Assembly: GCF_030817415.1 (NCBI RefSeq)
Contig: NZ_JAUSZI010000002.1
Span: 7,068,001 to 7,132,000 of the forward strand
DNA length: 64,000 nucleotides
From: Streptomyces umbrinus
GTDB taxonomy: Bacteria > Actinomycetota > Actinomycetes > Streptomycetales > Streptomycetaceae
Reading direction: 5' to 3'
Under the pieces are notes generated by a model. That model was not told the origin of the DNA and searched no databases. It saw only the letters and a program-made list of their open reading frames with translations. Every line of letters starts with the position of its first letter. Position 1 is the first letter of the stretch. Below are positions 39,906-52,327 of the stretch, in pieces. Made by a program: the position numbers and the translations under genes.

Positions 39906-40484
39906 ATGAATCTGAAGGAATGGGCGATAGCGAACGGCGTGCATCCGCATACCGCGTATCGCTGGTTCCGCGAGGGCACGCTTCCGGTTCCTGCTGAGAG
40001 GGTCGGGCCGCGCACGATTCTTGTGAACGTCAAAGCGAATTCCGCACCATCCGCGGCCAGTGGCGTGGGCCTGTATGCCCGTGTGTCGTCGCATGACAAG
40101 AAGGACGATCTGGAGCGCCAGATATCACGGCTGTCCCGATGGGCGGCCGAGGCCGGGCACCGGGTGGTGCGGATCGAAGCCGAGATTGCCTCCGGGATGA
40201 GCGCGGGACGTACCAAAGCCCGCCGTCTGCTGGCCGATCCTGCTGTGATGGCCGTGGTGGTGGAGCGCAAAGACAGACTCGGTCGGATGAATGTCGAACT
40301 GGTTGAGGCCGCTCTGTCTGCGGCCGGCCGGCGCTTGGTGGTGCTGGACGAGGGTGACGTCGATGACGATCTCGTACAGGACATCGAGGACGTGCTGACT
40401 TCGTTCTGTGGCCGTTTGTACGGGGGCGGCTCGGCGAAGAGCCGGGCACGCAGGGCCCTGGAAGCGGCGGCAGACGATGACTGA
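39906..40484 (+). CDS. tnpA: IS607-type serine recombinase TnpA
   Basis: 192 residues. The N-terminal MerR-like helix-turn-helix (MNLKEWAIANGVHPHTAYRW) precedes the resolvase catalytic domain with nucleophile S61 in LYARVSSHDKKDDLERQ, then RIEAEIASGMSAGR and VVVERKDRLGRMNVELVE. Full length and intact. It cuts and joins DNA for transposition. Confidence 0.95.
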   Translation: MNLKEWAIANGVHPHTAYRWFREGTLPVPAERVGPRTILVNVKANSAPSAASGVGLYARVSSHDKKDDLERQISRLSRWAAEAGHRVVRIEAEIASGMSAGRTKARRLLADPAVMAVVVERKDRLGRMNVELVEAALSAAGRRLVVLDEGDVDDDLVQDIEDVLTSFCGRLYGGGSAKSRARRALEAAADDD

Positions 40485-42123
40485 GCCCAAGAAGAAGTTC
40501 CGTCAGATGGTCCCTGCATTCGTCGCGCTCGGCCCGTCCGGTGTCGCGATTCGCGACCGGCTGAAGCACCTGACACCCGAAAACGACAGGGCGCTTCGCC
40601 TTGTCGGCGAACATCTGGGCTCTCTGGCGTCTCGTGATCTGGCGGCCCGTTGCCGCGACGGCAACGACCACGGCAGCGACAAGTGGGCGGCCCGCAAACA
40701 GGGTCTGACCGCAGAGTCGTCCTCGCGCTGGGCTGGTTCGATCACCAAGGCTACACATGATCAGTGGGCGCTCTCGCGTCGCTGCCAGCTTGCCCACATC
40801 CAGAACCTCGAAGCCGGTGTCCGCACCTTGATGCACCGGCTGTCGTTGCCGGTCGGAGAGAAGGGCACGAAGCGGGCTCCGGGTGGATACCGCTCCCAGC
40901 ACGAGTGGTTCCAGAAGTCCCGTCGGCTGGCCATGCTGGAAGACCGGCTGGAACAGGAGCGGGCCGACCGTGAGGCCGGGGTCGTGCACGTGGTGCGCGG
41001 CGGGAAGAAGCTGGCCCACAACCGGCACAACCTCGAAGCTGCGCAGCTCACCGAGGCGAAATGGCGGCAACGGTGGGCTGCCGAACGCCGATTCCTCCAA
41101 GCGGACGGCGAGTCGGGAAAACGGTTCGGGAACGAGACCATTCGCGTCACCTCGGCCGGCGAGGTCTCGATCAAGCTCCCGGCACCGCTGGCGGACTTGG
41201 CCAACGCGAAGCGCGGCCGGTACGTGTTGGCCGCTCGTGTGGAGTTCAAACATCGGGGCACTGAATGGCGGGACCGGATCGAGGCCAACCGGGCGGTGGC
41301 CTACCGCATCCACTACGACGTGGCCCGGGACCGCTGGTACCTCACTGCCTCGTGGCAGCGGCCGGCGGTCAAGACGATGCCGCTGGAGGCGGCCCGCGCA
41401 GGCGGCATGGTTGCTGTTGACACGAACAGCGACCACTTCGCCGCCTACCACCTCGATGTCCACGGCAACCCGGTAGGCGAGCCGCACCGGTTCTCCTTCG
41501 ACCTCACCGGCGCCGCCCCTCATCGGGATGCCCAGGTGCGACACGCAATCACTCGCCTCCTGCATTGGGCTGGGCGGTGCGGCGTGACCGCAATCGGGAT
41601 CGAGGACTTGGACTTCGAGCAAGAGAAGACCCGCGAGAAGTACGGGCGCAAGAGGAGGTTCCGGCAACTCATCTCTGGCTTGCCCACCGGAAAGCTCAAG
41701 GCCCGACTCGTATCGATGGCCGCCGAGGTGGGCATCGCGATCGTCGCGGTCGACCCTGCCTACACATCCATGTGGGGCGACGAACACTGGCGCAAACCCC
41801 TGACCAGCAAGAATCGCAAGATGACTCGCCATGACGCCGCCTCGGTGGCGATCGGCAGACGCGCCCTCGGACATCCGATCCGGCGACGGACGGCACCGCC
41901 CCACGATGACCGGAGTGATCGGCGTGGGCATCGGACCGTTCAGGCTGATCGTGGTGTCGGAGGGCGTGAGGGAACCCGACGCCCGGTCACGGAGCGTGCA
42001 CACGATGCGCGTGCCCGGACAGGGAGACATGAAGGAACGCGGGGGACCAGCGCATCCAAAACCGTTCGGGATGCGCGCAGTACCGGGACGTGGGTTCAAG
42101 ACTCCCTCCTGCGTACTGAGTAG
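40477..42123 (+). CDS. tnpB: IS607-associated TnpB (RNA-guided nuclease type)
   Basis: 548 residues, start ATG overlapping tnpA. RuvC residues are intact: D315 (MVAVDTNSDH), E376 (GIEDLDFE) and D453 (TRHDAASVAIGRRALGH). The usual CxxC zinc-finger pairs between the last two blocks are absent (VDPAYTSMWGDEHWRKPLTS). The low-complexity basic C-terminus probably overlaps the guide RNA. TnpB proteins cut target DNA using an RNA from the element end; activity here is inferred. Confidence 0.92.
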   Translation: MTEPKKKFRQMVPAFVALGPSGVAIRDRLKHLTPENDRALRLVGEHLGSLASRDLAARCRDGNDHGSDKWAARKQGLTAESSSRWAGSITKATHDQWALSRRCQLAHIQNLEAGVRTLMHRLSLPVGEKGTKRAPGGYRSQHEWFQKSRRLAMLEDRLEQERADREAGVVHVVRGGKKLAHNRHNLEAAQLTEAKWRQRWAAERRFLQADGESGKRFGNETIRVTSAGEVSIKLPAPLADLANAKRGRYVLAARVEFKHRGTEWRDRIEANRAVAYRIHYDVARDRWYLTASWQRPAVKTMPLEAARAGGMVAVDTNSDHFAAYHLDVHGNPVGEPHRFSFDLTGAAPHRDAQVRHAITRLLHWAGRCGVTAIGIEDLDFEQEKTREKYGRKRRFRQLISGLPTGKLKARLVSMAAEVGIAIVAVDPAYTSMWGDEHWRKPLTSKNRKMTRHDAASVAIGRRALGHPIRRRTAPPHDDRSDRRGHRTVQADRGVGGREGTRRPVTERAHDARARTGRHEGTRGTSASKTVRDARSTGTWVQDSLLRTE

Positions 42124-42223: not shown

Positions 42224-43252
42224 ATGAACGCCAAGCCCGACGTGCAGCTCCCCGCCGTCTCCGTGATCATGCCCGTCCTCAACGAGGAACGGCATCTGCG
42301 CGGAGCCGTCCAAGCGATCCTCGCCCAGGAGTACGGGGGCGAGATGGAGGTCGTGATCGCCATCGGTCCCTCGACGGACCGTACGGACGAGATCGCCGCC
42401 GAGCTCGTACGAGAAGACTCCCGTGTGCACACGGTGCCGAATCCGACCGGCCGCACCCCCGCCGCGCTGAACGCCGCGATCAAGGCGTCCCGCCACCCGA
42501 TCGTGGTACGCGTCGACGGGCACGGCATGCTCTCGCCGAACTACATCGCGACCGCCGTCCGCCTCCTGGAGGAGACCGGCGCGCAGAACGTCGGCGGCAT
42601 CATGCACGCCGAGGGCGAGAACGACTGGGAGCACGCGGTCGCCGCGGCGATGACGTCGAAGATCGGCGTGGGCAACGCGGCCTTCCACACGGGCGGCGAG
42701 GCCGCACCGGCCGATACCGTGTACCTCGGTGTCTTTCGCCGTGAGGCCCTGGAGCAACAGGGCGGCTACAACGAGGAGTTCATCCGCGCCCAGGACTGGG
42801 AGCTGAACTTCCGGATCCGTGAGGCGGGCGGCCTGATCTGGTTCTCGCCCGAGCTGCGGGTCTCGTACCGCCCTCGTCCTTCGGTGGGGGCCCTGGCCAA
42901 GCAGTACAAGGACTACGGGCGTTGGCGTCATGTCGTCGCCCGCTACCACTCGGGTTCGATCAACCTGCGCTACCTCGCCCCGCCGACGGCGGTCTGCGCG
43001 ATCGCCGCGGGCCTGGTGGTGGGTGCGGCGCTGACCCCCTGGGGCTTCCTGGTCCCCGGCGGCTACCTCGCGGCGATCGCCCTCGGTTCGCTCCCGGCGG
43101 GCAAGGGGCTGCCGCTGAAGGCGCGGCTGCAGATCCCGGTGGCCCTCGCGACGATGCACATGTCGTGGGGCTGGGGCTTCCTGACCAGTCCGAAGGCCCT
43201 GGCGAAGAGGGTTATCGCGTCGCGGCGGCCGGCGGTGCTGAGCGAGACCTGA
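42224..43252 (+). CDS. Family 2 glycosyltransferase
   Basis: 342 residues. GT-A domain: VSVIMPVLNEERHLRGAV, nucleotide-binding RVDGHGMLSPNYI and QDWELNFRIREAGG, followed by two C-terminal hydrophobic segments. Resembles exopolysaccharide/succinoglycan-type transferases. ATG at 42224. Its natural neighbour is the LCP gene at 38352, consistent with a wall-polymer role; the IS separates them. Confidence 0.92.
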   Translation: MNAKPDVQLPAVSVIMPVLNEERHLRGAVQAILAQEYGGEMEVVIAIGPSTDRTDEIAAELVREDSRVHTVPNPTGRTPAALNAAIKASRHPIVVRVDGHGMLSPNYIATAVRLLEETGAQNVGGIMHAEGENDWEHAVAAAMTSKIGVGNAAFHTGGEAAPADTVYLGVFRREALEQQGGYNEEFIRAQDWELNFRIREAGGLIWFSPELRVSYRPRPSVGALAKQYKDYGRWRHVVARYHSGSINLRYLAPPTAVCAIAAGLVVGAALTPWGFLVPGGYLAAIALGSLPAGKGLPLKARLQIPVALATMHMSWGWGFLTSPKALAKRVIASRRPAVLSET

Positions 43253-43369: not shown

Positions 43370-43735
43370 TCAGCACTTGCTGCTGTCGGCCACCGAACCG
43401 CCGTCGTCGAGGTTCCCGTTCCACACCCAGCCGCCGGTGGCGGCGCTGGGCACCCGGACATGCGTCCAGCGGTTCCCGGCCGAGTTGATCACCCAGCAGT
43501 CGTACTGCAACTCGTAGTTGCTTCCGACGGCGATGTTCACCGAGCAGTCCGAGCTCGGGCCGAGGCGGACGCGCGCGAAGCCCTCCTTGGCGTGCCCGAC
43601 GCCGGTCGACTTGTTCGACCAGCTGGGGCGGACGCAGGCTTCGGCGGCCGCGGCGGCCGAGGGAACCGTGGCGGTCAAGGTGCCCGCCGTCAGCAGTGCG
43701 GATGCGGCCGCCGTCATGAGACGGATCTTCTTCAC
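43370..43735 (-). CDS. Secreted SH3-like domain protein
   Basis: 121 residues from GTG at 43735 (GGGGAG upstream). Signal peptide about 1-30, then a bacterial SH3-like domain (GFARVRLGPSSDCSVNIAVGSNYELQYDCW...RWTHVRVPS...GGWVWNGNL) with four cysteines. Such domains bind cell-wall material. Third gene of a leftward group with a lipoprotein and an I36-like protein. Confidence 0.82.
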   Translation of the reverse strand: MKKIRLMTAAASALLTAGTLTATVPSAAAAAEACVRPSWSNKSTGVGHAKEGFARVRLGPSSDCSVNIAVGSNYELQYDCWVINSAGNRWTHVRVPSAATGGWVWNGNLDDGGSVADSSKC

Positions 43736-43764
43736 TGGCGTCTCCCCGTTCTCCGGTGGTCGTG

Positions 43765-44712
43765 TCAGCGGGCGCCGGCCTCTGCGGCTGCCTTGAGGAT
43801 CGCCACCTTGCGGTCCTTGAGCGTGTTCAGCAGCTGCTGGTTCTTCTCGATGGCCCGGTCCTGGTAGGCGAGTTCGACGGCGTACCAGGTGCCGATCACG
43901 TTGTGTTTGCGTTTGCACGCGACATCGGTCTCGGCCACCCGGATCTCCTCCGCGGAGGCGCTGGATGCCCGACTGAACCGCTTGTCCTCCACGGCGGCCA
44001 TGGGCTGCGCGTAGGAGTAGCCGCTCTTCTTCATGCAGGCGGACCAGGCGGCGAACGCCTTCTTCACCCGGGAGTCCTTCTGGGACTCCTGCCAGGTGTA
44101 CCCGGCGAGCTGGTCCGCGAACTCCTCCTTGTCCGGCTGGACCTCGGGCCCCTTGGCGGCGAGGTCGCGCAGGGACTTGCCCCAGCACCCGCCCTTCGGG
44201 ATCGTCTTGCCGTTCTGCTTCTCCGCCTGCTGCCCGTCCTGCGGGCCGAAGAGCACCAGGGACTCGGCGGGCGAGTAGCTCTCCTCGGGCCTGGAGCCGC
44301 GCGCGGCGGGGTCCGGGTGGTAGCCGAAGCGCGAGGCCGTGGCCGTCTCGGTCACGCCGTAGCGGCTGGCGTCGCGCAACGCCTTGTCGCCCCGGTAGAG
44401 GGGCCGCGGCTCCAGGTCGAAGCCGAATCCGCGCATGCACGCGGCGGCGAGCTGGTCCTCGCCCTGGCGCTTGGTGCGCTCCTCGGCGTCCGTCCACGCA
44501 TACGCTTCCAGTGGCAGCTGCAAATTGCGCGAACTGGGCATGGACGGGGTGGCCGAGACCTCCGGCGGGTTCTTGAAGTCGACCGGAGGGGCCTCCGAGG
44601 AGCGGCTGCCCGCCTGATCGTCGCCGGGGGAGTCCCCCGAGCAGCCGGTCAGCCCGAGGGCGGCGCAGACGAGCGCCGCCCCGAGCAGTCGTACGGTGGC
44701 GCTGCGTGACAT
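43765..44712 (-). CDS. Four-cysteine lipoprotein, paralogue of the gene at 48769
   Basis: 315 residues: lipobox LTGC (C24), Pro/Ser spacer, then a charged helical domain. Four cysteines recur in the same contexts as in the paralogue: ACMRGFGF, GGCWGKS, SACMKKSGYSY and VACKRK. Shared tail pattern PMAAVEDKRF...EIRVAETDVACKRK. ATG at 44712, 15 bases after the I36-like stop. Family not recognised; it probably works with the exporter cluster. Confidence 0.83.
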   Translation of the reverse strand: MSRSATVRLLGAALVCAALGLTGCSGDSPGDDQAGSRSSEAPPVDFKNPPEVSATPSMPSSRNLQLPLEAYAWTDAEERTKRQGEDQLAAACMRGFGFDLEPRPLYRGDKALRDASRYGVTETATASRFGYHPDPAARGSRPEESYSPAESLVLFGPQDGQQAEKQNGKTIPKGGCWGKSLRDLAAKGPEVQPDKEEFADQLAGYTWQESQKDSRVKKAFAAWSACMKKSGYSYAQPMAAVEDKRFSRASSASAEEIRVAETDVACKRKHNVIGTWYAVELAYQDRAIEKNQQLLNTLKDRKVAILKAAAEAGAR

Positions 44713-44727
44713 GTGTTCGTCCGCGAC

Positions 44728-45129
44728 CTAGAAGGGCTCGTAGCTGGACGCGTTGTTGTTCTGCAGCCAGCCGGGCGTGTTGCGGCGCACACCGTCACAG
44801 GTGTGGTTGTGGCGCTGCCCGTTGAAGTTCGAGTTGAAGAAGATCGCGTAGTTGTAGCGGGTGCCGGCGCACTTGGCGGACGAGGCGTTGTTGCCGACGA
44901 CCTGGCCCTTGCCGTCACCGCTGGAGCGGAACACGTCGTCGTGGTGGCTCGGCTCCTCGTCGTAGTAGTCCACGTACGACGAAGCCCCGTACTGGGTCGA
45001 GTGGTAGTACATGCACAGCTCACCGCTGTCGCAAACGCCGTCGTTGTAGGCGGCCTGAGCCGGTGCCGTGTTCAGCGCGATCGTGCCGAGCGCGATGGCC
45101 GCCGCGGCGAAGAAAGAACGAGCCCTCAT
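44728..45129 (-). CDS. Secreted I36-like (SMPI/beta-gamma-crystallin-type) protein
   Basis: 133 residues: signal peptide (cut near AQA), then CDSGELCMYYHSTQYG, NNASSAKC, IFFNSNFNG and NNNASSYEPF. The C..xxxCxYY, NNAS and FNSN elements recur in the proteins at 49699 and 50162. The family includes the Streptomyces metalloproteinase inhibitor SMPI. ATG at 45129; divergent from the exporter operon. Confidence 0.83.
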   Translation of the reverse strand: MRARSFFAAAAIALGTIALNTAPAQAAYNDGVCDSGELCMYYHSTQYGASSYVDYYDEEPSHHDDVFRSSGDGKGQVVGNNASSAKCAGTRYNYAIFFNSNFNGQRHNHTCDGVRRNTPGWLQNNNASSYEPF

Positions 45130-45381
45130 GGTTTCCTCCCGTTGTGTGTGAGCCGTAAGTGCCCAACGGCGAAGGATCTTTACATGGCTTGTGCATCAGT
45201 GGGCATTTTGAGGTGTCCATCTGACCGAAAATGATCTTCCTGGCCGTAAATGATCGACTGTCAAGTGGCCCCGAGTGAAACCGGCTTGACAGTTTTGGAG
45301 GCCGAATGATCGTCTTTTGCATGGCCATGACGACGTGATGCCGGGCTCGGCACACGTCGTCCACAGTTGGGGGAGTGTGTG

Positions 45382-46749
45382 GTGTCGAAACAGGGGGAGA
45401 GCTCCGGCCTGACCCGGCGCAAGCGGTCGCTGACCGCGGTTGCCGTGGGGTCCGTGGTGCTCGTCGGTGCCGCTCTGTGGACCTCGGTCTATGTGAAGTC
45501 ACCGGCCCAGGCCGCCGCCGAGGCGCAGCCGCCCGCCCCCGACGTGCTCACCGCGTCCGTCGAACGGCGCGTGCTCGCCGACACGGTCGTCACGCGGGGA
45601 GCGGTCGCGGCGTCGCAGACGGTGGACATCGCCCCGGGCGGAACAGCCGCGGAGGGCGCCGCCAAGCCCGTGGTCACCAAGGTCATGGTGCGCTCGGGCC
45701 AGACCTTCCGAAGCGGCCGGGTCCTCGTCGAGGTGTCGGGCCGCCCGGTGTTCGCCCTGCGCGGCAAGCTCCCCGTCTACCGGGACCTCAAGCCCGGCTC
45801 CCACGGAGACGACGTGCGCCAGCTCCAGGAGGCGCTGCGCGACCTCGGTCATGCCACGGGCGGCGACGCCGCGGGCACCTTCGGCCCCGGCACCAAGGCA
45901 GCCGTCGGAGCGTTGTACGCGTCCATCGGCTACGAGCCGGCGACCACGGGCGGTGGTAAGGACGGCGGCGACCCGGTGGAGGGCGCACGCGACGAGGTGA
46001 AGGGTGCCCAGCGCGCGCTCGACGGACTCGTGCGTGACAAGGCCGACGCCGACGAGATCCGATACGCACGCGAGGACCTGGCCGAGGCCAGGTCCGAACT
46101 GGCCGACGCCGAGGCGGTGTCGGGGCCGATGGTGCCCGCCTCCGAGGTGGTGTTCCTCTCGGGCTTCCCCGCCCGCGTCGACAGCATGACCGCCAAGGTC
46201 GGAGCGGCCGCGGGCGAGAAGCTCGCCACCGTCTCCGCGGGGAAGCTCGTCGTCACGGGCTACCTCGGTGCCCAGGAGAAGGACCTCATCCGCCCGGGCC
46301 AGAAGGTCCAGGTGCTGTCCGAGGTGTACGGCGACGAACTGACCGGCACGGTCAGCGCCGTCGCGAACACCCCCACGGTTCCCGAGACGGAAGGCGAGGG
46401 GGCGGCCGCGGCGACGCCTGCCGGACAGGGGTACGCGGTCACCGTGAAGCCGGACCGCGCGCTCCCCGGCCGCCTCGCGGGTCAGGACGTCCGCCTCACC
46501 GTCGAGGCGGGTTCATCGGGCGGGAAGGTCCTGGTGGTCCCGGTCTCCGCGCTGTCCGCCGGGGCCGACTCGCGCACCAGGGTCACCGTGCTGGAGCGCT
46601 CCGGCGACCGGCGCCGCGTCGAGGTGCGGCCCGGCACCTCCGGTGACGGCTACACCGAGGTGACCCCGGTGGGCGGGACCCCGCTCGCCGAGGGCGACAA
46701 GGTCGTCGTGGGTGTCAGGCCCGCGGAGGGTGACGAGGCCGCCAAGTGA
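45382..46749 (+). CDS. MacA-like adaptor with peptidoglycan-binding domain
   Basis: About 455 residues: membrane helix near 18-36, a barrel/lipoyl-like half (VERRVLADTVVTRGAVAAS), a peptidoglycan-binding-1 domain (about 135-165: GSHGDDVRQLQEALRDLGH... FGPGTKAAV), a helical hairpin and a C-terminal beta domain (VLVVPVSALSAGADSRT). GTG at 45382 with GGGGAG at 6 bases; GTG 45379 possible. Its stop overlaps the ATPase start. It would link the permease to the wall. Confidence 0.9.
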   Translation: MSKQGESSGLTRRKRSLTAVAVGSVVLVGAALWTSVYVKSPAQAAAEAQPPAPDVLTASVERRVLADTVVTRGAVAASQTVDIAPGGTAAEGAAKPVVTKVMVRSGQTFRSGRVLVEVSGRPVFALRGKLPVYRDLKPGSHGDDVRQLQEALRDLGHATGGDAAGTFGPGTKAAVGALYASIGYEPATTGGGKDGGDPVEGARDEVKGAQRALDGLVRDKADADEIRYAREDLAEARSELADAEAVSGPMVPASEVVFLSGFPARVDSMTAKVGAAAGEKLATVSAGKLVVTGYLGAQEKDLIRPGQKVQVLSEVYGDELTGTVSAVANTPTVPETEGEGAAAATPAGQGYAVTVKPDRALPGRLAGQDVRLTVEAGSSGGKVLVVPVSALSAGADSRTRVTVLERSGDRRRVEVRPGTSGDGYTEVTPVGGTPLAEGDKVVVGVRPAEGDEAAK

Positions 46750-47441
46750 CCACACCCGCGGTGCCGCCGGTCATCGAGTTCCGCGGCACAGGTCTCACGT
46801 ATCCCGGGCCGCCGCCCGTACAGGCCCTCAGACCCTGTGACCTGGCGATCCGGCAGGGAGAGTACGTCACCATCGTCGGCCCCTCCGGTTCCGGCAAGTC
46901 GACGTTCCTCAACATCGCCGGGCTGCTGGACGCACCCACCGAGGGGCACTACCTCCTCGACGGCATCGACACCGGCCCGCTGGCCGACGCCGACCGCACC
47001 GGACTGCGCGGCCGGCGCATCGGATTCGTGTTCCAGAGCTTCCACCTGCTGCCGCACCGCTCCGCGCTGGAGAACGTCGAGCTGGCGATGGTCTACAACG
47101 GCGGGGTGCGCCGCGGCCGCCGGGAGCGGGCCCGCGAGGCACTGCACCGAGTCGGTCTCGAACACCGGACCGACGCGCTGCCCACCCGGCTCTCCGGAGG
47201 CGAGCGCCAGCGCGTCGCCATCGCCCGGGCCCTGGTCGCCCGGCCGTCGCTCCTGCTGTGCGACGAACCGACCGGCAACCTCGACACGCACACGGCCGAG
47301 TCGGTCCTCGGGCTCCTCGACGAGCTCCACCGGGACGGCATCACCCTGCTCGTGATCACCCACGACCCGGACGTCGCGGCTCGTGGCCGCCGCACGATCG
47401 CCATCCGGGACGGCGTGCTCAGCGAGCAGGTGGCCGTCTGA
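46746..47441 (+). CDS. ABC transporter ATPase (MacB/LolD type)
   Basis: 231 residues. Walker A GPSGSGKSTFLNIAG, Q-loop FVFQSFHLLPHRSALENV, signature LSGGERQRVAIARAL, Walker B LLLCDEPTGNLD, H-loop VITHD. GTG overlaps the adaptor stop and TGATG joins it to the permease. Powers the mechanotransmission-type permease that follows. Confidence 0.95.
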   Translation: MTTPAVPPVIEFRGTGLTYPGPPPVQALRPCDLAIRQGEYVTIVGPSGSGKSTFLNIAGLLDAPTEGHYLLDGIDTGPLADADRTGLRGRRIGFVFQSFHLLPHRSALENVELAMVYNGGVRRGRRERAREALHRVGLEHRTDALPTRLSGGERQRVAIARALVARPSLLLCDEPTGNLDTHTAESVLGLLDELHRDGITLLVITHDPDVAARGRRTIAIRDGVLSEQVAV

Positions 47442-48709
47442 TGCCGGGCCGCAAGCTGAAGTGGGTGCGGCGACGGGGGACCGGGGGAGCGGCGGCCGAC
47501 CGGTCGCGGTTCAGTCCGCGCGACCTGCTGTCCGAGTCCGTCGCCGGAATCCTCCAGCGTCCGGCGCGCTCCGTCCTGACCGCCCTGGGTACCGTGCTGG
47601 GCGTCGGCACGTTCGTCGCGGTGCTCGGTCTGACGGCGACCACGTCCTCACAGATCGATTCCCGCTTCAATGAGCTGACCGCCACCGAGGTGACCGTCGA
47701 GGACACCGGGGGCGAACAGCCCGAGTTCCTCTCCAACGCCTTCCCCGCCGACGCGGACCGCCGTATCGGCGCGCTGGGCGGGGTCCGGGAGGCCGGTGTG
47801 TACTGGCCCGTGCGCCTCGGACCCGGCACCGTCGTGAGCGCCGCGCCCGTCGGTACGGAGGGGACGGGGGAGCAGACGCAAGTGGTCGCCGCGTCTCCCG
47901 GCGTCCTCGCGGCGGCCGGCCCACACCTGGCGCAGGGGCGGATCTTCGACGAGTACCACGACCGGCGTGGTGAGAACGTCGCCGTGATCGGCGCCGGACT
48001 CGCCTCCCGCCTGGGCATCACCACGCTGGAGGCGGCCCCGGCCATCTTCGTGGAAGACCGCGCCTTCACGGTGATCGGCATTGTCGACGACGTGCGGCGC
48101 AAGGCGGACCTGCTGCTCTCGGTGGTGGTGCCGCGGACCACGGCCGAGGAGATATGGGGCGGTCCTGAGGCAGGGCAGCGGGCCAAGATGCTCATCTCCA
48201 CCGACCTGGGGGCCGCCCGGCAGATCGCCTCCGAGGCGGCGCTGGCCCTCGACCCCGCGCACCCCGACCACTTCAAGGTCGTACCGCCGCCGGATCCGAG
48301 GTCCCTGCGCGGTGACGTCACCTCCGACCTGAACCAGCTCTTCATGCTGATGGCCGGGATCTGCCTGGTGATCGGGGCGGTCGGCATCGCCAACACCACG
48401 CTCGTGGCCGTTCTCGAACGCACGGGGGAGATCGGCCTGCGCAGGGCGCTCGGCGCCCGCGGCCGCCACATCACCGTGCAGTTCCTGGCGGAGTCGGGCG
48501 CCCTGGGAGCGCTCGGCGGGCTGGCCGGCACGAGCCTCGGCACGGTGACCGTGGTCGTCATGGCGGTCGTCCGTGACTGGACACCGGTCATCCATCCGGC
48601 GACCGTCGTCGCCGCCCCGGCGATCGGCCTGGTCACCGGGGTTCTCGCGGGGCTCTACCCCGCATGGCGCGCCAGCCGCATCCAACCCGCGGAGGCGTTG
48701 CGCCGCTGA
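47441..48709 (+). CDS. FtsX/MacB-type ABC permease
   Basis: 422 residues: N-terminal transmembrane helix after an amphipathic segment (SVAGILQRPARSVLTALGTVLGV), a large extracytoplasmic MacB_PCD-like domain, then three C-terminal helices with GICLVIGAVGIANTTLVAVLERTGEIGLRRALGARGR, the FtsX signature. Completes an adaptor-ATPase-permease set. Confidence 0.94.
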   Translation: MPGRKLKWVRRRGTGGAAADRSRFSPRDLLSESVAGILQRPARSVLTALGTVLGVGTFVAVLGLTATTSSQIDSRFNELTATEVTVEDTGGEQPEFLSNAFPADADRRIGALGGVREAGVYWPVRLGPGTVVSAAPVGTEGTGEQTQVVAASPGVLAAAGPHLAQGRIFDEYHDRRGENVAVIGAGLASRLGITTLEAAPAIFVEDRAFTVIGIVDDVRRKADLLLSVVVPRTTAEEIWGGPEAGQRAKMLISTDLGAARQIASEAALALDPAHPDHFKVVPPPDPRSLRGDVTSDLNQLFMLMAGICLVIGAVGIANTTLVAVLERTGEIGLRRALGARGRHITVQFLAESGALGALGGLAGTSLGTVTVVVMAVVRDWTPVIHPATVVAAPAIGLVTGVLAGLYPAWRASRIQPAEALRR

Positions 48710-48768
48710 GGCACACCGCTTGCCGTTCGTTCAGGTCCCAGCCCCTCCATGGCTCCCAAGGAAGAGAC

Positions 48769-49647
48769 GTGCGAAAGACGACAGCGACTGCCCTGCTTGC
48801 CACAGCTCTGCTTCTCGCGGGCTGCTCCGGCTCCGGCGACGGCGACAAGGCGGCTGTACCGGAGCAGCCGGACAGCTCCATCGCGCCCAAGTCGTCGAGC
48901 CTCACAGCGGATCTGGTCCTGCCCATAGAGGGCTACATCTTCTCCGAGTCCGAACTCGGCCTGATGACCAACGCGATGAGCAGCCTGGCCAAGCGCTGTA
49001 TGAAGCGGTCCGGCTTCGACTACCGCCCGGACGAGACGCAGTCCCCCGACATCGGTGTCATGGACCGTCGCTACGGCATAGCCAACTCGCGCACGGCGGA
49101 GGGGTACGGCTATCACTTCCCCACCCCCAAGGCCGGTGAGTCGGCCACCAGGACGCTGGGCGAGGCGGGCCGCGTCGCGCTCGCGGGCAAGCCTCTCGCG
49201 GACGGTTCGTTCGACCCCGACGGCGGATGCATCGGCGAGGCCAAGCGACGACTGGCGGGCAAGGAGGCCGAGTTCGGCCCGGACAAGGTGGCCCGCGAAC
49301 TCAATATGGAGAGTTACGTCCGCAGCAAGAAGGACCCACGCGTCCTCTCCGTGTTCCGCACCTGGTCCTCGTGCATGGCGGCCAAGGGGTACCGCTATGC
49401 CTCGCCCATGGAGGCCATCGACGACCCTCAATTCGGGGCCGAGAAGACCAGCCCCGCCGAGATTTCGACGGCCCGAGCGGACGTCGAATGCAAGGAGAAG
49501 ACCGGACTCGTACGCGCCTGGTTCGACGTCGAGTCCGAATGGCAGCGGACGGAGATCGAGAAAAAGGCCGAGGAACTCGCCCGGATCAAGCGGCACAAGA
49601 CGGACCAGCTCAAGCGGGCCGCTGCCGAGATGGGCGAATCCCGGTGA
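48769..49647 (+). CDS. Four-cysteine lipoprotein, paralogue of the gene at 43765
   Basis: 292 residues. GTG at 48769 with AAGGAAG upstream; lipobox LLAGC (about C18). The four cysteine contexts match the paralogue: RCMKRSGFDY, GGCIGEA, SSCMAAKGYRY and VECKEK, as does PMEAIDDPQF...EISTARADVECK. It follows the permease by 59 bases and precedes two I36-like genes. Function unknown. Confidence 0.83.
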   Translation: MRKTTATALLATALLLAGCSGSGDGDKAAVPEQPDSSIAPKSSSLTADLVLPIEGYIFSESELGLMTNAMSSLAKRCMKRSGFDYRPDETQSPDIGVMDRRYGIANSRTAEGYGYHFPTPKAGESATRTLGEAGRVALAGKPLADGSFDPDGGCIGEAKRRLAGKEAEFGPDKVARELNMESYVRSKKDPRVLSVFRTWSSCMAAKGYRYASPMEAIDDPQFGAEKTSPAEISTARADVECKEKTGLVRAWFDVESEWQRTEIEKKAEELARIKRHKTDQLKRAAAEMGESR

Positions 49648-49698
49648 ACCGCCGCTGCCCTACCACCCCCATCCGCAGGACAGAAGGGACACCCTCCC

Positions 49699-50115
49699 AT
49701 GCGTATCCGTAACTCCGCCCTCACCGCCGCCCTGGCGGCTGCCGGCGCTCTCGGCATGCTGGTCACCGCGGCGCCCGCACAGGCTGACGACATCCCGGAC
49801 GGCCTGTGCGGCGGTGTCATCGATGTCGACTACTGCCTTTGGTACAACTCCAACCAGAAGGGCGGCTGGACCGCCACCTACGAGAATATTCCGAACTGGG
49901 CCAACTGGAACTTCTCGGACGGCGGCCAGGGCACCAACGGTGTGAACACCCCCGTGAAGAACAACGCCGCGTCCTACGCGAACAGCCACGACAGCAAGAC
50001 CGGTGTCTCGTACTTCAACTCGAACTACGCCGGTGCCTCCGATGTCGCCCCGCCGCGCGACAAGGGCAATCTCTCCAACACCTACAACAACAACGCGTCC
50101 TTCCGCTGGCGCTGA
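49699..50115 (+). CDS. Secreted I36-like protein (copy 1)
   Basis: 138 residues: signal peptide (cut near AQA), then CGGVIDVDYCLWYNSNQKGGW, PNWANW, VKNNAASYANS, GVSYFNSNYAGASD and NNNASFRWR. Only two cysteines, probably disulfide-bonded. Tandem duplicate of the next gene. May be a protease inhibitor or beta-gamma-crystallin-like wall protein. Confidence 0.85.
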   Translation: MRIRNSALTAALAAAGALGMLVTAAPAQADDIPDGLCGGVIDVDYCLWYNSNQKGGWTATYENIPNWANWNFSDGGQGTNGVNTPVKNNAASYANSHDSKTGVSYFNSNYAGASDVAPPRDKGNLSNTYNNNASFRWR

Positions 50116-50161
50116 GCAGGGCAGCGAACAGGCCAGGGAAATTCCCGAGACAGGAGTGACC

Positions 50162-50593
50162 ATGCGTATTCGATCTCTGCTCGTCGCCGGTGGCGTACTC
50201 GCCGCCGGCACCATGGGCGTCTTCACCACGGCGACTTCGGCCCAGGCCGCGTCCAGATCCAGCATCTGTGGCGGGGTACTCGAAGGGATGTACTGCCTCT
50301 ACTACAACTCCGGCCAGAAGGGCGGCGCCACCGGAGCCCGGGAGAACGTCCCCAACTGGGGCAACTACAACGGCACCGGGCTTCCGATGAACTTCGCGGA
50401 CTGGGGCCTCGGCACGGCCGGGGTCGGACAGAGCGTGAAGAACAACGCCGCGTCCTGGGCCAACACCGCGAACAAGTCCGGAGTTTCGTACTTCAACTCC
50501 AACTACGGCGGTGCGTACGACGTCGGTGCCCCGAACTCCAAGGGGCAGCTGGTGAACACCTACAACGAGAACGCGTCCTTCCGCTTCCGCTGA
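50162..50593 (+). CDS. Secreted I36-like protein (copy 2)
   Basis: 143 residues; after the signal peptide CGGVLEGMYCLYYNSGQKGG, PNWGNYNG, VKNNAASWANT, GVSYFNSNYGGAYD and NENASFRFR align with copy 1 throughout. ATG at 50162 preceded by CAGGAGTGACC. Followed by a strong terminator, so it closes the exporter operon. Confidence 0.86.
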   Translation: MRIRSLLVAGGVLAAGTMGVFTTATSAQAASRSSICGGVLEGMYCLYYNSGQKGGATGARENVPNWGNYNGTGLPMNFADWGLGTAGVGQSVKNNAASWANTANKSGVSYFNSNYGGAYDVGAPNSKGQLVNTYNENASFRFR

Positions 50594-50692: not shown

Positions 50693-52327
50693 TCACAAGC
50701 GGTAGGGCTTGTACACCGGCATGCACGCGCCGCTGTCGGAACCGCTCACGACGTCGGCATCCTTGGGGAGTTCCCCGGCCTTCGGCGCGGACTGCTTCGG
50801 ATAGGCCGTGCCGGTACGCCAGTCGGCGCCCACGACGAGGGTGACCCCGGAGACGTCGGTCGACTTCTTCACCGAACTCAGCGGGATCCCCAGGGACTTG
50901 GCGACCGCCTGGGCGTCGCCCTCCAACTCGGCGCTCGGGAAGCGGACGACCGTCTTGTCCTCGGCCACCGCGGCCGACCTGTCGGCCGTCGCCCTGGTGA
51001 AGCCCTTCTGGGTGAGCAGCCCGGCGATCGTGCTCGCCCTGCCGCCGACCGGGCCGAGCGTGGCCGACTGCGTGCCGTTCCGCACCGTCACGCCGATCTC
51101 GTCGTCGGCGGCCGCGGGGTCTTTGGAGACCTGCTCCTCGGCCTTCTTCTTCGTCGGGTCCCCGCCCTTGTCGAACGCGATGTCGTCGCGGACCATCGTC
51201 CACAGCTTCTCGGCGTCGGCGCCCGCCGGGACCAGGTGGTTGGGGTCGAGCGGGTCGACGACGGTCGGGATGGTCGTCATGGTGATGCGTTTGGTCGGCA
51301 CCGTCTTGAGCTGCATGCCCAGGTCGTACAGGTCCTTGACCGAGCCGAGTTCCTCGGAGACCTTCAGGGACTTCGTGGCTGCCTCGGCCAGGCCCATCAA
51401 CCGCCCGCCGTCGGTGAAGACGTTCTGGTCCTTCAGCGTGCGGATCATCGAGTTCATGTACATGTGCTGGGCCTTGGCCCGGCCCAGGTCGCTGTAGAAG
51501 GCGTGCCTGGTGCGCAGCCACTGCAGTGCCTTCTTGCCCGTGATCTTCTGCTTGCCGGCATCCAGCCTCAGATTGGAGCCGCCGGGCACGCCGGGCAGCG
51601 GGCGGTCCCACATCTTGTGCTCCACACAGACCTCGACACCGCCGATGGCGTCCGCCATCTTCACCACACCCGCGAAGTCGATGGTCATCCAGTGGTCGAT
51701 ATAGACGCCGGTGAGGTTCTGCCAGGTGGCCAGGGTGCAGCCGGCTCCGCCGCGGCCCAACGACGCGTTGATGATGTTGTTGGTCGCGGGGTACTGCTCG
51801 TCGGTCTCGGGATCCGTGCACTTCGGGATGTCGACCCGGGTGTCGCGCGGAATGCTCACGACGGCGGCGCTCTTGCGGTCCGCGGACAGATGGATGAGCA
51901 TCTGGACGTCGCCCAGCGGTTTGCTGCCGACCTGGTCCCGGCTGCCGCCGAGCTTGACGTTCTCCGTGGAGTTACGGCTGTCGGAGCCGATCAGCAGAAT
52001 GTTCAGCGGTGTCTGGCCGGCCGCGTTCGGCTTCGCCTTCTCCGCTTTGGAGTCTCCGCTGGCGCGCTCGCCCTTGCGGATGTTGCTGTTCAGATGCTGG
52101 TAGTAGAGATAACCGGCGCCGGCCGTCCCGAGTATGAGCACCGCGAGAGTCGCGGCGGACCACCGGAGTATGCCGTGTTTGCCGCGGCGGCGCGTCGATC
52201 TGCCGTGCCGGCCACCGCCGGCGTCACCCCCCTCCTCCTTTGCCCCACCACTGTGCGAGCCGCCCTCCCGCGTGGCCGACTGGTCATGTGGTCGGGTCCC
52301 CTCCCCACGCACACTGCTCTGCACCAT
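50693..52327 (-). CDS. LCP family protein with LytR C-terminal domain
   Basis: 544 residues from ATG 52327 (GGAGG 7 bases upstream). Cytoplasmic Gly/Arg-rich part, transmembrane helix (about 55-75), LCP domain (LIGSDSRNST, VVSIPRDTRVD, WLRTRHAFYSDLGRAKAQ) and a C-terminal LytR_C region (IGVTVRNGTQSATLGP...). Ends with GACMPVYKPYRL. Lies directly downstream of another LCP gene in the same direction. Confidence 0.92.
   Translation of the reverse strand: MVQSSVRGEGTRPHDQSATREGGSHSGGAKEEGGDAGGGRHGRSTRRRGKHGILRWSAATLAVLILGTAGAGYLYYQHLNSNIRKGERASGDSKAEKAKPNAAGQTPLNILLIGSDSRNSTENVKLGGSRDQVGSKPLGDVQMLIHLSADRKSAAVVSIPRDTRVDIPKCTDPETDEQYPATNNIINASLGRGGAGCTLATWQNLTGVYIDHWMTIDFAGVVKMADAIGGVEVCVEHKMWDRPLPGVPGGSNLRLDAGKQKITGKKALQWLRTRHAFYSDLGRAKAQHMYMNSMIRTLKDQNVFTDGGRLMGLAEAATKSLKVSEELGSVKDLYDLGMQLKTVPTKRITMTTIPTVVDPLDPNHLVPAGADAEKLWTMVRDDIAFDKGGDPTKKKAEEQVSKDPAAADDEIGVTVRNGTQSATLGPVGGRASTIAGLLTQKGFTRATADRSAAVAEDKTVVRFPSAELEGDAQAVAKSLGIPLSSVKKSTDVSGVTLVVGADWRTGTAYPKQSAPKAGELPKDADVVSGSDSGACMPVYKPYRL

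Follow-up and report, generated by a model that had tools for sequence, protein, structure and literature searches.

Movable pairs of a small secreted crystallin-like protein and a lipoprotein in soil actinobacteria, two of them around one exporter in Streptomyces umbrinus

Soil actinobacteria carry many movable two-gene units, each encoding a small secreted crystallin-like protein and a dedicated lipoprotein, and in Streptomyces umbrinus two such units surround a single exporter. The stretch analyzed here, hereafter the window, comprises 64,000 nucleotides of a 12.4-Mb genome (contig NZ_JAUSZI010000002.1, positions 7,068,001 to 7,132,000). Within it, between a glycosyltransferase gene and a LytR-CpsA-Psr (LCP) gene, nine genes form two divergent arms (43370-50593). 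All nine are present where an initial annotation, made from the sequence alone, had placed them, and the gene content bears out its description of a module of lipoprotein plus peptidase inhibitor I36-like protein on both sides of one exporter. As far as it can be read from sequence, this layout suggests a secreted weapon accompanied by its own self-protection protein.

Two genes that travel together

The survey covers 125 loci with 131 lipoprotein open reading frames (ORFs), all chosen for holding a lipoprotein: those of the S. umbrinus genome itself, 60 fetched from a profile search of 41 Streptomyces genomes, and 58 named loci that came out of a pattern scan over genome contigs of Streptomyces, Kitasatospora, Kribbella, Jiangella, Actinoplanes, Lentzea, Nocardiopsis, Nonomuraea, Amycolatopsis, Actinomadura, Rhodococcus, Microbispora and other genera. 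The 60 loci contain 63 of the 66 profile matches outside the S. umbrinus genome, the first match of G009:C1 and those of G034:C21 and G032:C201 being left out (L and G numbers are our handles for loci and genomes). Because the survey includes closely related loci (L126 and L131, for example), its counts are not independent; the 131 ORFs also include fragments, among them L009, L116 and L123, some fetched stretches end at contig ends, and genes in the fetched loci were called with a simple caller of our own.

No more than 1 kb separates 106 of the 131 lipoprotein ORFs from an I36-like ORF, a count that, like the other profile-based ones, is partly circular because the I36 profile was built in part from the pairs of the S. 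umbrinus genome. These neighbours share the strand of the lipoprotein in 116 cases and oppose it in one, the median gap between partners is 58 bp, and 115 of the 119 I36-like ORFs in the 125 loci have a lipoprotein within 1 kb. Under a stricter rule, admitting only the immediate same-strand neighbour at up to 400 bp, the partner is I36-like for 100 lipoproteins and another small secreted-looking protein for 10, which leaves 21 with no partner of either kind. Lipoproteins without a partner are found, for instance, in L074, L076 and L081, and tandem lipoproteins or tandem pairs in L124, L098 and L060. Because of the circularity, an independent test was run with the Pfam model PF03995 (Inhibitor_I36): 21 of its 127 matches in the 41 genomes fall within 500 bp of a lipoprotein match, 20 of them on the same strand, where 0.07 would be expected, so that the layout is far beyond chance. 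The initial annotation had staked its proposal on the co-occurrence of lipoprotein and I36-like genes in other genomes, and the two do co-occur in most of the loci examined.

The partners also diverge together. Over 94 pairs, the distances among lipoproteins and those among their partners correlate with a Mantel r of 0.78 (highest of 2000 permutations, 0.12), and the nearest neighbour is identical for both proteins in 54 of them. When the species tree is set aside by comparing paralogues within genomes (four genomes with at least three pairs, 20 pairs, 45 comparisons), the pooled r is 0.85, a value that none of 5000 permutations reached. Adjacent genes on the same strand, inherited and duplicated as a unit, are one of the features expected of effector-immunity pairs, and this feature is found here.

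The lipoprotein profile gives 73 matches in 30 of the 41 Streptomyces genomes, with between 0 and 9 in each genome (a few of these matches are pieces of the same gene), and the other 11 genomes have no match at E up to 1e-5. In the S. umbrinus genome a direct search finds seven homologues, and L017, where a further, divergent homologue lies next to a second exporter, brings the number to eight; each of the five among the seven that lie outside the window has an I36-like neighbour, and a script search found an adaptor or FtsX match near none of these five. Plasmids carry relatives of the lipoprotein as well: they occur in 32 plasmid records, which come from Streptomyces, Kitasatospora, Streptantibioticus, Embleya and Nonomuraea and include several near-copies or megaplasmids. 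Five of these records were inspected, and an I36-profile neighbour is present in all five and a complete adaptor-ABC (ATP-binding cassette)-permease set on one. Among 296 Actinomycetota genomes, 15 have a match (S. umbrinus included), 10 of them outside its class. One of the latter, the 2.6-Mb genome G291 (L216-L219), holds seven lipoprotein matches on few contigs, some of them with other small secreted-looking neighbours.

The lipoproteins and their partners

Both arms of the window encode a four-cysteine lipoprotein, as the initial annotation had seen: one of 315 amino acids (aa) on the left (43765-44712, minus strand) and one of 292 aa, with a GTG start, on the right (48769-49647, plus strand), each with a lipobox-type cysteine and four conserved ones (C77, C154, C202 and C241 in the right-arm protein). 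The latter is predicted to be all-helical, with a pLDDT mostly about 90 across the mature part, and its predicted structure has no clear fold match in the PDB; the left-arm protein matches no Pfam or NCBIfam family above cut-off. In a quick lipoprotein tree (116 of the 131 rows, filtered by length and E-value; 19 with a permease within 6 kb) each of the two window lipoproteins has a well-supported set of its own, one of 3 rows and the other of 4; the sets share no row, and the path to the next rows measures about 1.4 or more. The two therefore belong to two long-separated pairs that stand beside one exporter.

The secreted proteins are of 133 aa in the left arm (44728-45129, minus strand) and of 138 and 143 aa in the right arm (49699-50115 and 50162-50593, plus strand), the last two being 58% identical. 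Their earlier label, I36-like, needs a correction. All three remain below the PF03995 cut-off of 21.1 bits: 44728-45129 scores 17.1, an over-long frame of 50162-50593 scores 13.7 and its proper frame gives no match at E 0.01, and 49699-50115 gives no match to this model. The predicted structure, in turn, matches solved betagamma-crystallins over most of the domain; among solved structures, the closest relatives found are protein S in sequence and crystallins of the spherulin type in fold. Calcium-type motifs of the form [ND][ND]xx[ST] occur at least twice in 49699-50115 and 44728-45129 and once in 50162-50593. Among 102 I36-like neighbours (a different set from the 102 scanned with Pfam below), 63 have at least two such motifs, and after residue 28 there are no cysteines in 15 and two in 31. 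The secreted proteins have signal-peptide-like starts, as judged by eye and with a crude script. Three close relatives of the right-arm proteins (P0055, P0056 and P0065) are named "peptidase M23" by their source, which lists no Pfam domain for them; the name looks like an annotation error.

The slot beside the lipoprotein is not reserved to a single family. For a Pfam scan, 102 small neighbours were picked by hand, near-copies and frames that did not look secreted being left out; a few are probably not partners. Inhibitor_I36 is matched by 47 of them (E up to 0.01), Crystall by 4, RicinB_lectin_2 by 2 and Crystall_2 by 1, and nine further families have one match each, some of these being clearly real domains (DUF4097, DUF948, AMIN) of probable non-partners. 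Above the Pfam cut-offs stand Crystall_2 in L158 (30.8 bits, cut-off 25) and a ricin-B beta-trefoil in L160 (26.0, cut-off 25.6), so at least two fold types fill the slot beside the same lipoprotein family. Lipoproteins also have large neighbours that look secreted (1265-1515 aa; L060 10854-15320, L067 2607-7154, L160 3696-7799, L161 8935-12792 and L164 8998-12795), possibly another partner type; the three that were scanned match Golvesin_C, two of them above cut-off.

The insert and its exporter

The nine genes of the window constitute a discrete insert of about 7.3 kb. On its left lies the gene of a family 2 glycosyltransferase (42224-43252, plus strand), conserved in 39 of the 41 Streptomyces genomes, and on its right that of the LCP protein (50693-52327, minus strand; PF03816), both outside the system. 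We looked at this junction, within 1.5 kb, in 30 of the 39 genomes that carry the glycosyltransferase gene, S. umbrinus included: of the 29 other loci, 25 have the LCP gene immediately downstream in convergent orientation, it was not seen downstream in L253, L257, L262 and L270, and in S. umbrinus it is displaced. Terminator-like hairpins were recognized by eye at both borders. Adjoining the glycosyltransferase gene, at 40083-42123 (plus strand), there is a gene for a serine resolvase (PF00239) and, after it, one that looks like TnpB by eye and has no Pfam match at E 0.001; the two resemble an IS607-type element.

Four relatives that carry the same exporter differ in the content of their arms. 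In S. albicerus (L108) both arms are present, and in L154 the left one alone; in L124 the left arm is accompanied on its side by a second, different pair, and the right arm is missing; L109, with a different left flank, has the right arm alone. The two arms have therefore been gained or lost independently. The region between them (45130-45378) keeps a mean column identity of 76% among the window, L108, L154 and L124, and simple SigE-like and sigma70-like patterns give no match in it. At the far end of the left arm, a small secreted protein of 121 aa (43370-43735, minus strand) has no Pfam match, and no search confirmed the name SH3-like given to it by the initial annotation. This protein is optional, with a close homologue in L108 and none seen at that place in L154 and L124. 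Small secreted-looking proteins that resemble it by eye lie at or near the same insert in L108 (9464-9925, minus strand) and L154 (13977-14432, plus strand).

The exporter occupies the start of the right arm and is of the MacAB/YknXYZ type, i.e., an adaptor, a separate ATPase and a MacB_PCD/FtsX permease. The adaptor (456 aa, about 45379-46749, plus strand; GTG start, with an alternative upstream start at 45367) carries the peptidoglycan-binding domain already ascribed to it, PG_binding_1, at 28.2 bits (cut-off 23). It is assigned as an adaptor by this domain, by its position and by weak matches to MacA and CzcB; the name "MacA-like" rests on weak matches below cut-off. The ATPase (231 aa, 46746-47441, plus strand) scores 110.8 bits with PF00005, above cut-off, and its best NCBIfam matches, MacB, LolD and FtsE, are below their own cut-offs. 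The permease (422 aa, about 47441-48709, plus strand) exceeds the cut-offs of PF12704 (63.2 bits) and PF02687 (61.5 bits), so these two assignments of the initial annotation hold. PADLOC models run against nine proteins, the ATPase not among them, gave only weak matches, those of the permease to two CARF-LolE fusion models.

The exporter is not the core of the unit, because an adaptor and a permease are present in only 22 of the 125 lipoprotein loci. On the lipoprotein tree, its presence requires 10 changes, at least three of them forced by well-supported branches. Seen from the adaptor, all 9 matches with E below 1e-140 in the 41 genomes stand beside a lipoprotein, the ninth being L017, with a profile that was built from adaptors beside lipoproteins and favours finding such ones. 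A weaker full-length match (G029, E 7.9e-42, L196) has no lipoprotein that could be seen beside it, and the 20 weaker adaptor loci fetched (L196-L215) belong to other adaptor-ABC-FtsX sets.

Those other sets have lipoproteins of their own. In at least 10 of the 20 loci, short lipoproteins with repeated CM(R/K)xxG and cysteine motifs lie directly upstream of the adaptor-ABC-FtsX genes (e.g., L200 4323-4883, L201 3912-4352 and L209 4155-4799); the eight that were scanned match no Pfam family above cut-off, and two-component genes, named by eye, are often nearby in many of these loci. In L017 (7428-13537, at 6.28 Mb of the S. umbrinus genome), L105 and L107, a divergent four-cysteine lipoprotein is encoded with adaptor, ATPase and FtsX permease, and in L017 and L105 a gene that looks by eye like a sigma factor is just upstream. 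The long lipoprotein profile is clearly related to the lipoproteins of these three loci (hhalign probability 97.9, E 4.6e-13, 234 columns); its relationship with the short ones (probability 95.4) is confined to a single repeat unit of 51 columns. Judging from these profiles, it looks as if a lipoprotein of exporter sets had been taken up into the two-gene pairs, or the reverse, either direction fitting.

Possible function and known systems

We favour, with a probability of about 0.5, a reading in which the mobile island holds two independent effector-immunity pairs around one exporter. The small betagamma-crystallin-fold protein of each pair would leave the cell by the general secretion pathway and exert its action outside, its likeliest role being that of a bacteriocin-like effector directed at related actinobacteria. 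The lipoprotein, helical by prediction and probably disulfide-bonded, would be anchored on the outer face of the producer's membrane and protect it by binding the effector. The adaptor-ATPase-FtsX set would add a second layer, expelling effector molecules that arrive at the envelope, much as Bacillus YknWXYZ acts against the toxin SDP or as LanI plus LanFEG act in lantibiotic immunity. We prefer this to a housekeeping role because the pairing, the exchangeable partners, the variation in copy number, the carriage on plasmids and the insertion at a conserved junction fit it better. Of the wall-associated release or self-protection proposed initially, self-protection is plausible, with the lipoprotein as its main player, and a dedicated release system is not needed, since the secreted proteins have signal-peptide-like starts and most pairs lack an exporter.

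Several observations weigh against this reading. Adjacency and co-divergence would equally fit any obligate two-protein complex. Among the PF03995 matches, 106 of 127 have no lipoprotein match within 1 kb, so that many relatives work without such a partner and only a part of the I36 family is paired; conversely, some lipoproteins lack a small partner, 21 of 131 by the strict rule, although in four of these (L009, L071, L116 and L123) an I36-like ORF does lie within 1 kb. Of 20 loci fetched from the survey across the phylum, no more than 5 have an I36-profile neighbour (four in Streptomyces, the fifth weak, E 0.0065), and the remaining ones have other small secreted-looking neighbours or none. 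Moreover, no catalytic, pore or killing motif was recognized, 47 of the 102 scanned neighbours match a protease-inhibitor model, and some known microbial proteins with this fold, such as protein S and spherulin 3a, are structural and bind calcium. Finally, no crystallin is encoded near the exporter-linked lipoproteins of L017, L105 and L107, and the exporter label is clustered on the tree (its 10 changes against a shuffled mean of 17.9; none of 500 shuffles as low), so that exporter docking is partly inherited.

A rival reading is an envelope system centred on the exporter, where the lipoprotein would be a fourth subunit of MacAB-like exporters (a sensor or substrate binder) and the crystallin-like protein a cargo or a wall-protecting partner under envelope stress, with no killing. 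We consider it unlikely. The profile relationship with crystallin-free lipoproteins (97.9 over 234 columns), the 51-column unit common to the short CMRxxG lipoproteins upstream of other sets, the lipoprotein beside all nine strongest adaptors and the sigma-factor-looking (L017, L105) or two-component genes (many of L196-L215) that by eye adjoin those sets speak in its favour, but 103 of the 125 lipoprotein loci lack adaptor and permease in the fetched stretch (some being cut by contig ends), and the label changes 10 times on the tree, at least three of them forced.

Two further explanations are, in our view, less probable still. The secreted proteins could be protease inhibitors of the I36 type, similar to SMPI, which the lipoprotein would tether or regulate at the surface against own or foreign proteases; the 47 PF03995 matches and the name peptidase inhibitor given by some sources to relatives agree with this. 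SMPI has a disulfide-held reactive loop, but such a conserved loop is not shared here, as the number of cysteines varies (none in 15 and two in 31 of 102); besides, the window proteins stay below the Pfam cut-off, a ricin-B-type protein occupies the same slot elsewhere, and the nearest solved relatives are protein S and spherulin-type crystallins. The other explanation, to which we give marginally less weight, is a structural surface protein that binds calcium, as protein S and spherulin do, and that the lipoprotein would anchor or assemble into a coating of spores or hyphae. The betagamma-crystallin fold and the repeated calcium-type motifs (63 of 102 neighbours) would suit it, but a patchy presence (0 to 9 per genome, with 11 of 41 Streptomyces genomes lacking a lipoprotein match at E up to 1e-5), carriage on plasmids and exchange of partner families would be unusual for a coat protein.

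If the effector-immunity reading is extended to the whole family, and this we propose tentatively, the pairs would be a class of protein bacteriocins of Actinomycetota, with a two-repeat, cysteine-rich helical lipoprotein as the common immunity scaffold and exchangeable small secreted beta proteins (betagamma-crystallins, Crystall_2, beta-trefoils) as effectors. Their cassettes, on chromosomes and plasmids, could dock by an adaptor-ABC-FtsX exporter that binds peptidoglycan and that belongs, with its relatives, to a general set of lipoprotein and exporter. Work on antagonism in Streptomyces has dealt mostly with small molecules and, recently, with umbrella particles. Were the proposal true, a large set of paired genes, with a lipoprotein that no Pfam or NCBIfam family covers, would offer a simple route to new protein antibiotics and immunity factors, a function would be given to part of the genes annotated as peptidase inhibitor I36 and hypothetical lipoprotein, and it would be explained why a lipoprotein travels with a peptidoglycan-binding MacAB-like exporter. 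Among open-licence papers, covered for the pairs by titles and the beginnings of abstracts, we found no description of crystallin-lipoprotein pairs or of Streptomyces family I36 inhibitors.

As to known systems, I36 (SMPI) and Crystall_2 (PF09076) proteins are likewise small, secreted and of betagamma-crystallin fold, and Crystall_2, which includes the Streptomyces killer toxin-like protein SKLP, itself fills the slot in L158; the window proteins differ in scoring below the Pfam I36 cut-off and in being tied to a lipoprotein. Protein S and spherulin 3a are structural stress or spore proteins, for which we know of no lipoprotein partner. The initial annotation had pointed to lactococcin 972-type loci, where, in the part of the source consulted, a secreted protein lies beside genes of a putative ABC transporter thought to give immunity and no lipoprotein is mentioned (PMC4055356). 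That resemblance is not supported: the ATPase scores 179.2 bits against a TIGR03608 cut-off of 254.85 and PF09683 is absent from the S. umbrinus genome. In 4 of the 41 genomes PF09683 is present, at places which, compared by eye, are not shared with lipoprotein or adaptor matches.

In lantibiotic producers, immunity is built in two layers, the lipoprotein LanI and the ABC exporter LanFEG. The putative two-layer self-protection of the window, a dedicated lipoprotein plus an ABC exporter, would be similar in arrangement (nisI and nisFEG are named in the part of PMC4055356 consulted), although the window has an FtsX-type exporter and its effector would be a folded protein. The same source, in that part, notes that bacteriocin producers, nisin being named, often rely on more than one immunity system (PMC4055356). 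As for the exporter, Bacillus YknWXYZ is described, in the part of the report consulted, as protecting against the endogenous secreted toxin SDP (PMC4887032), and pneumococcal Spr0693-0695, again from a partial view of its source, as a MacAB-like exporter of Gram-positives (PMC5768738). An adaptor, a separate ATPase and a MacB/FtsX permease are shared with the window, whereas its adaptor has a peptidoglycan-binding domain, all 9 of the strongest adaptor matches have a lipoprotein beside them, and what the exporter is presumed to handle is a folded protein of crystallin-like type.

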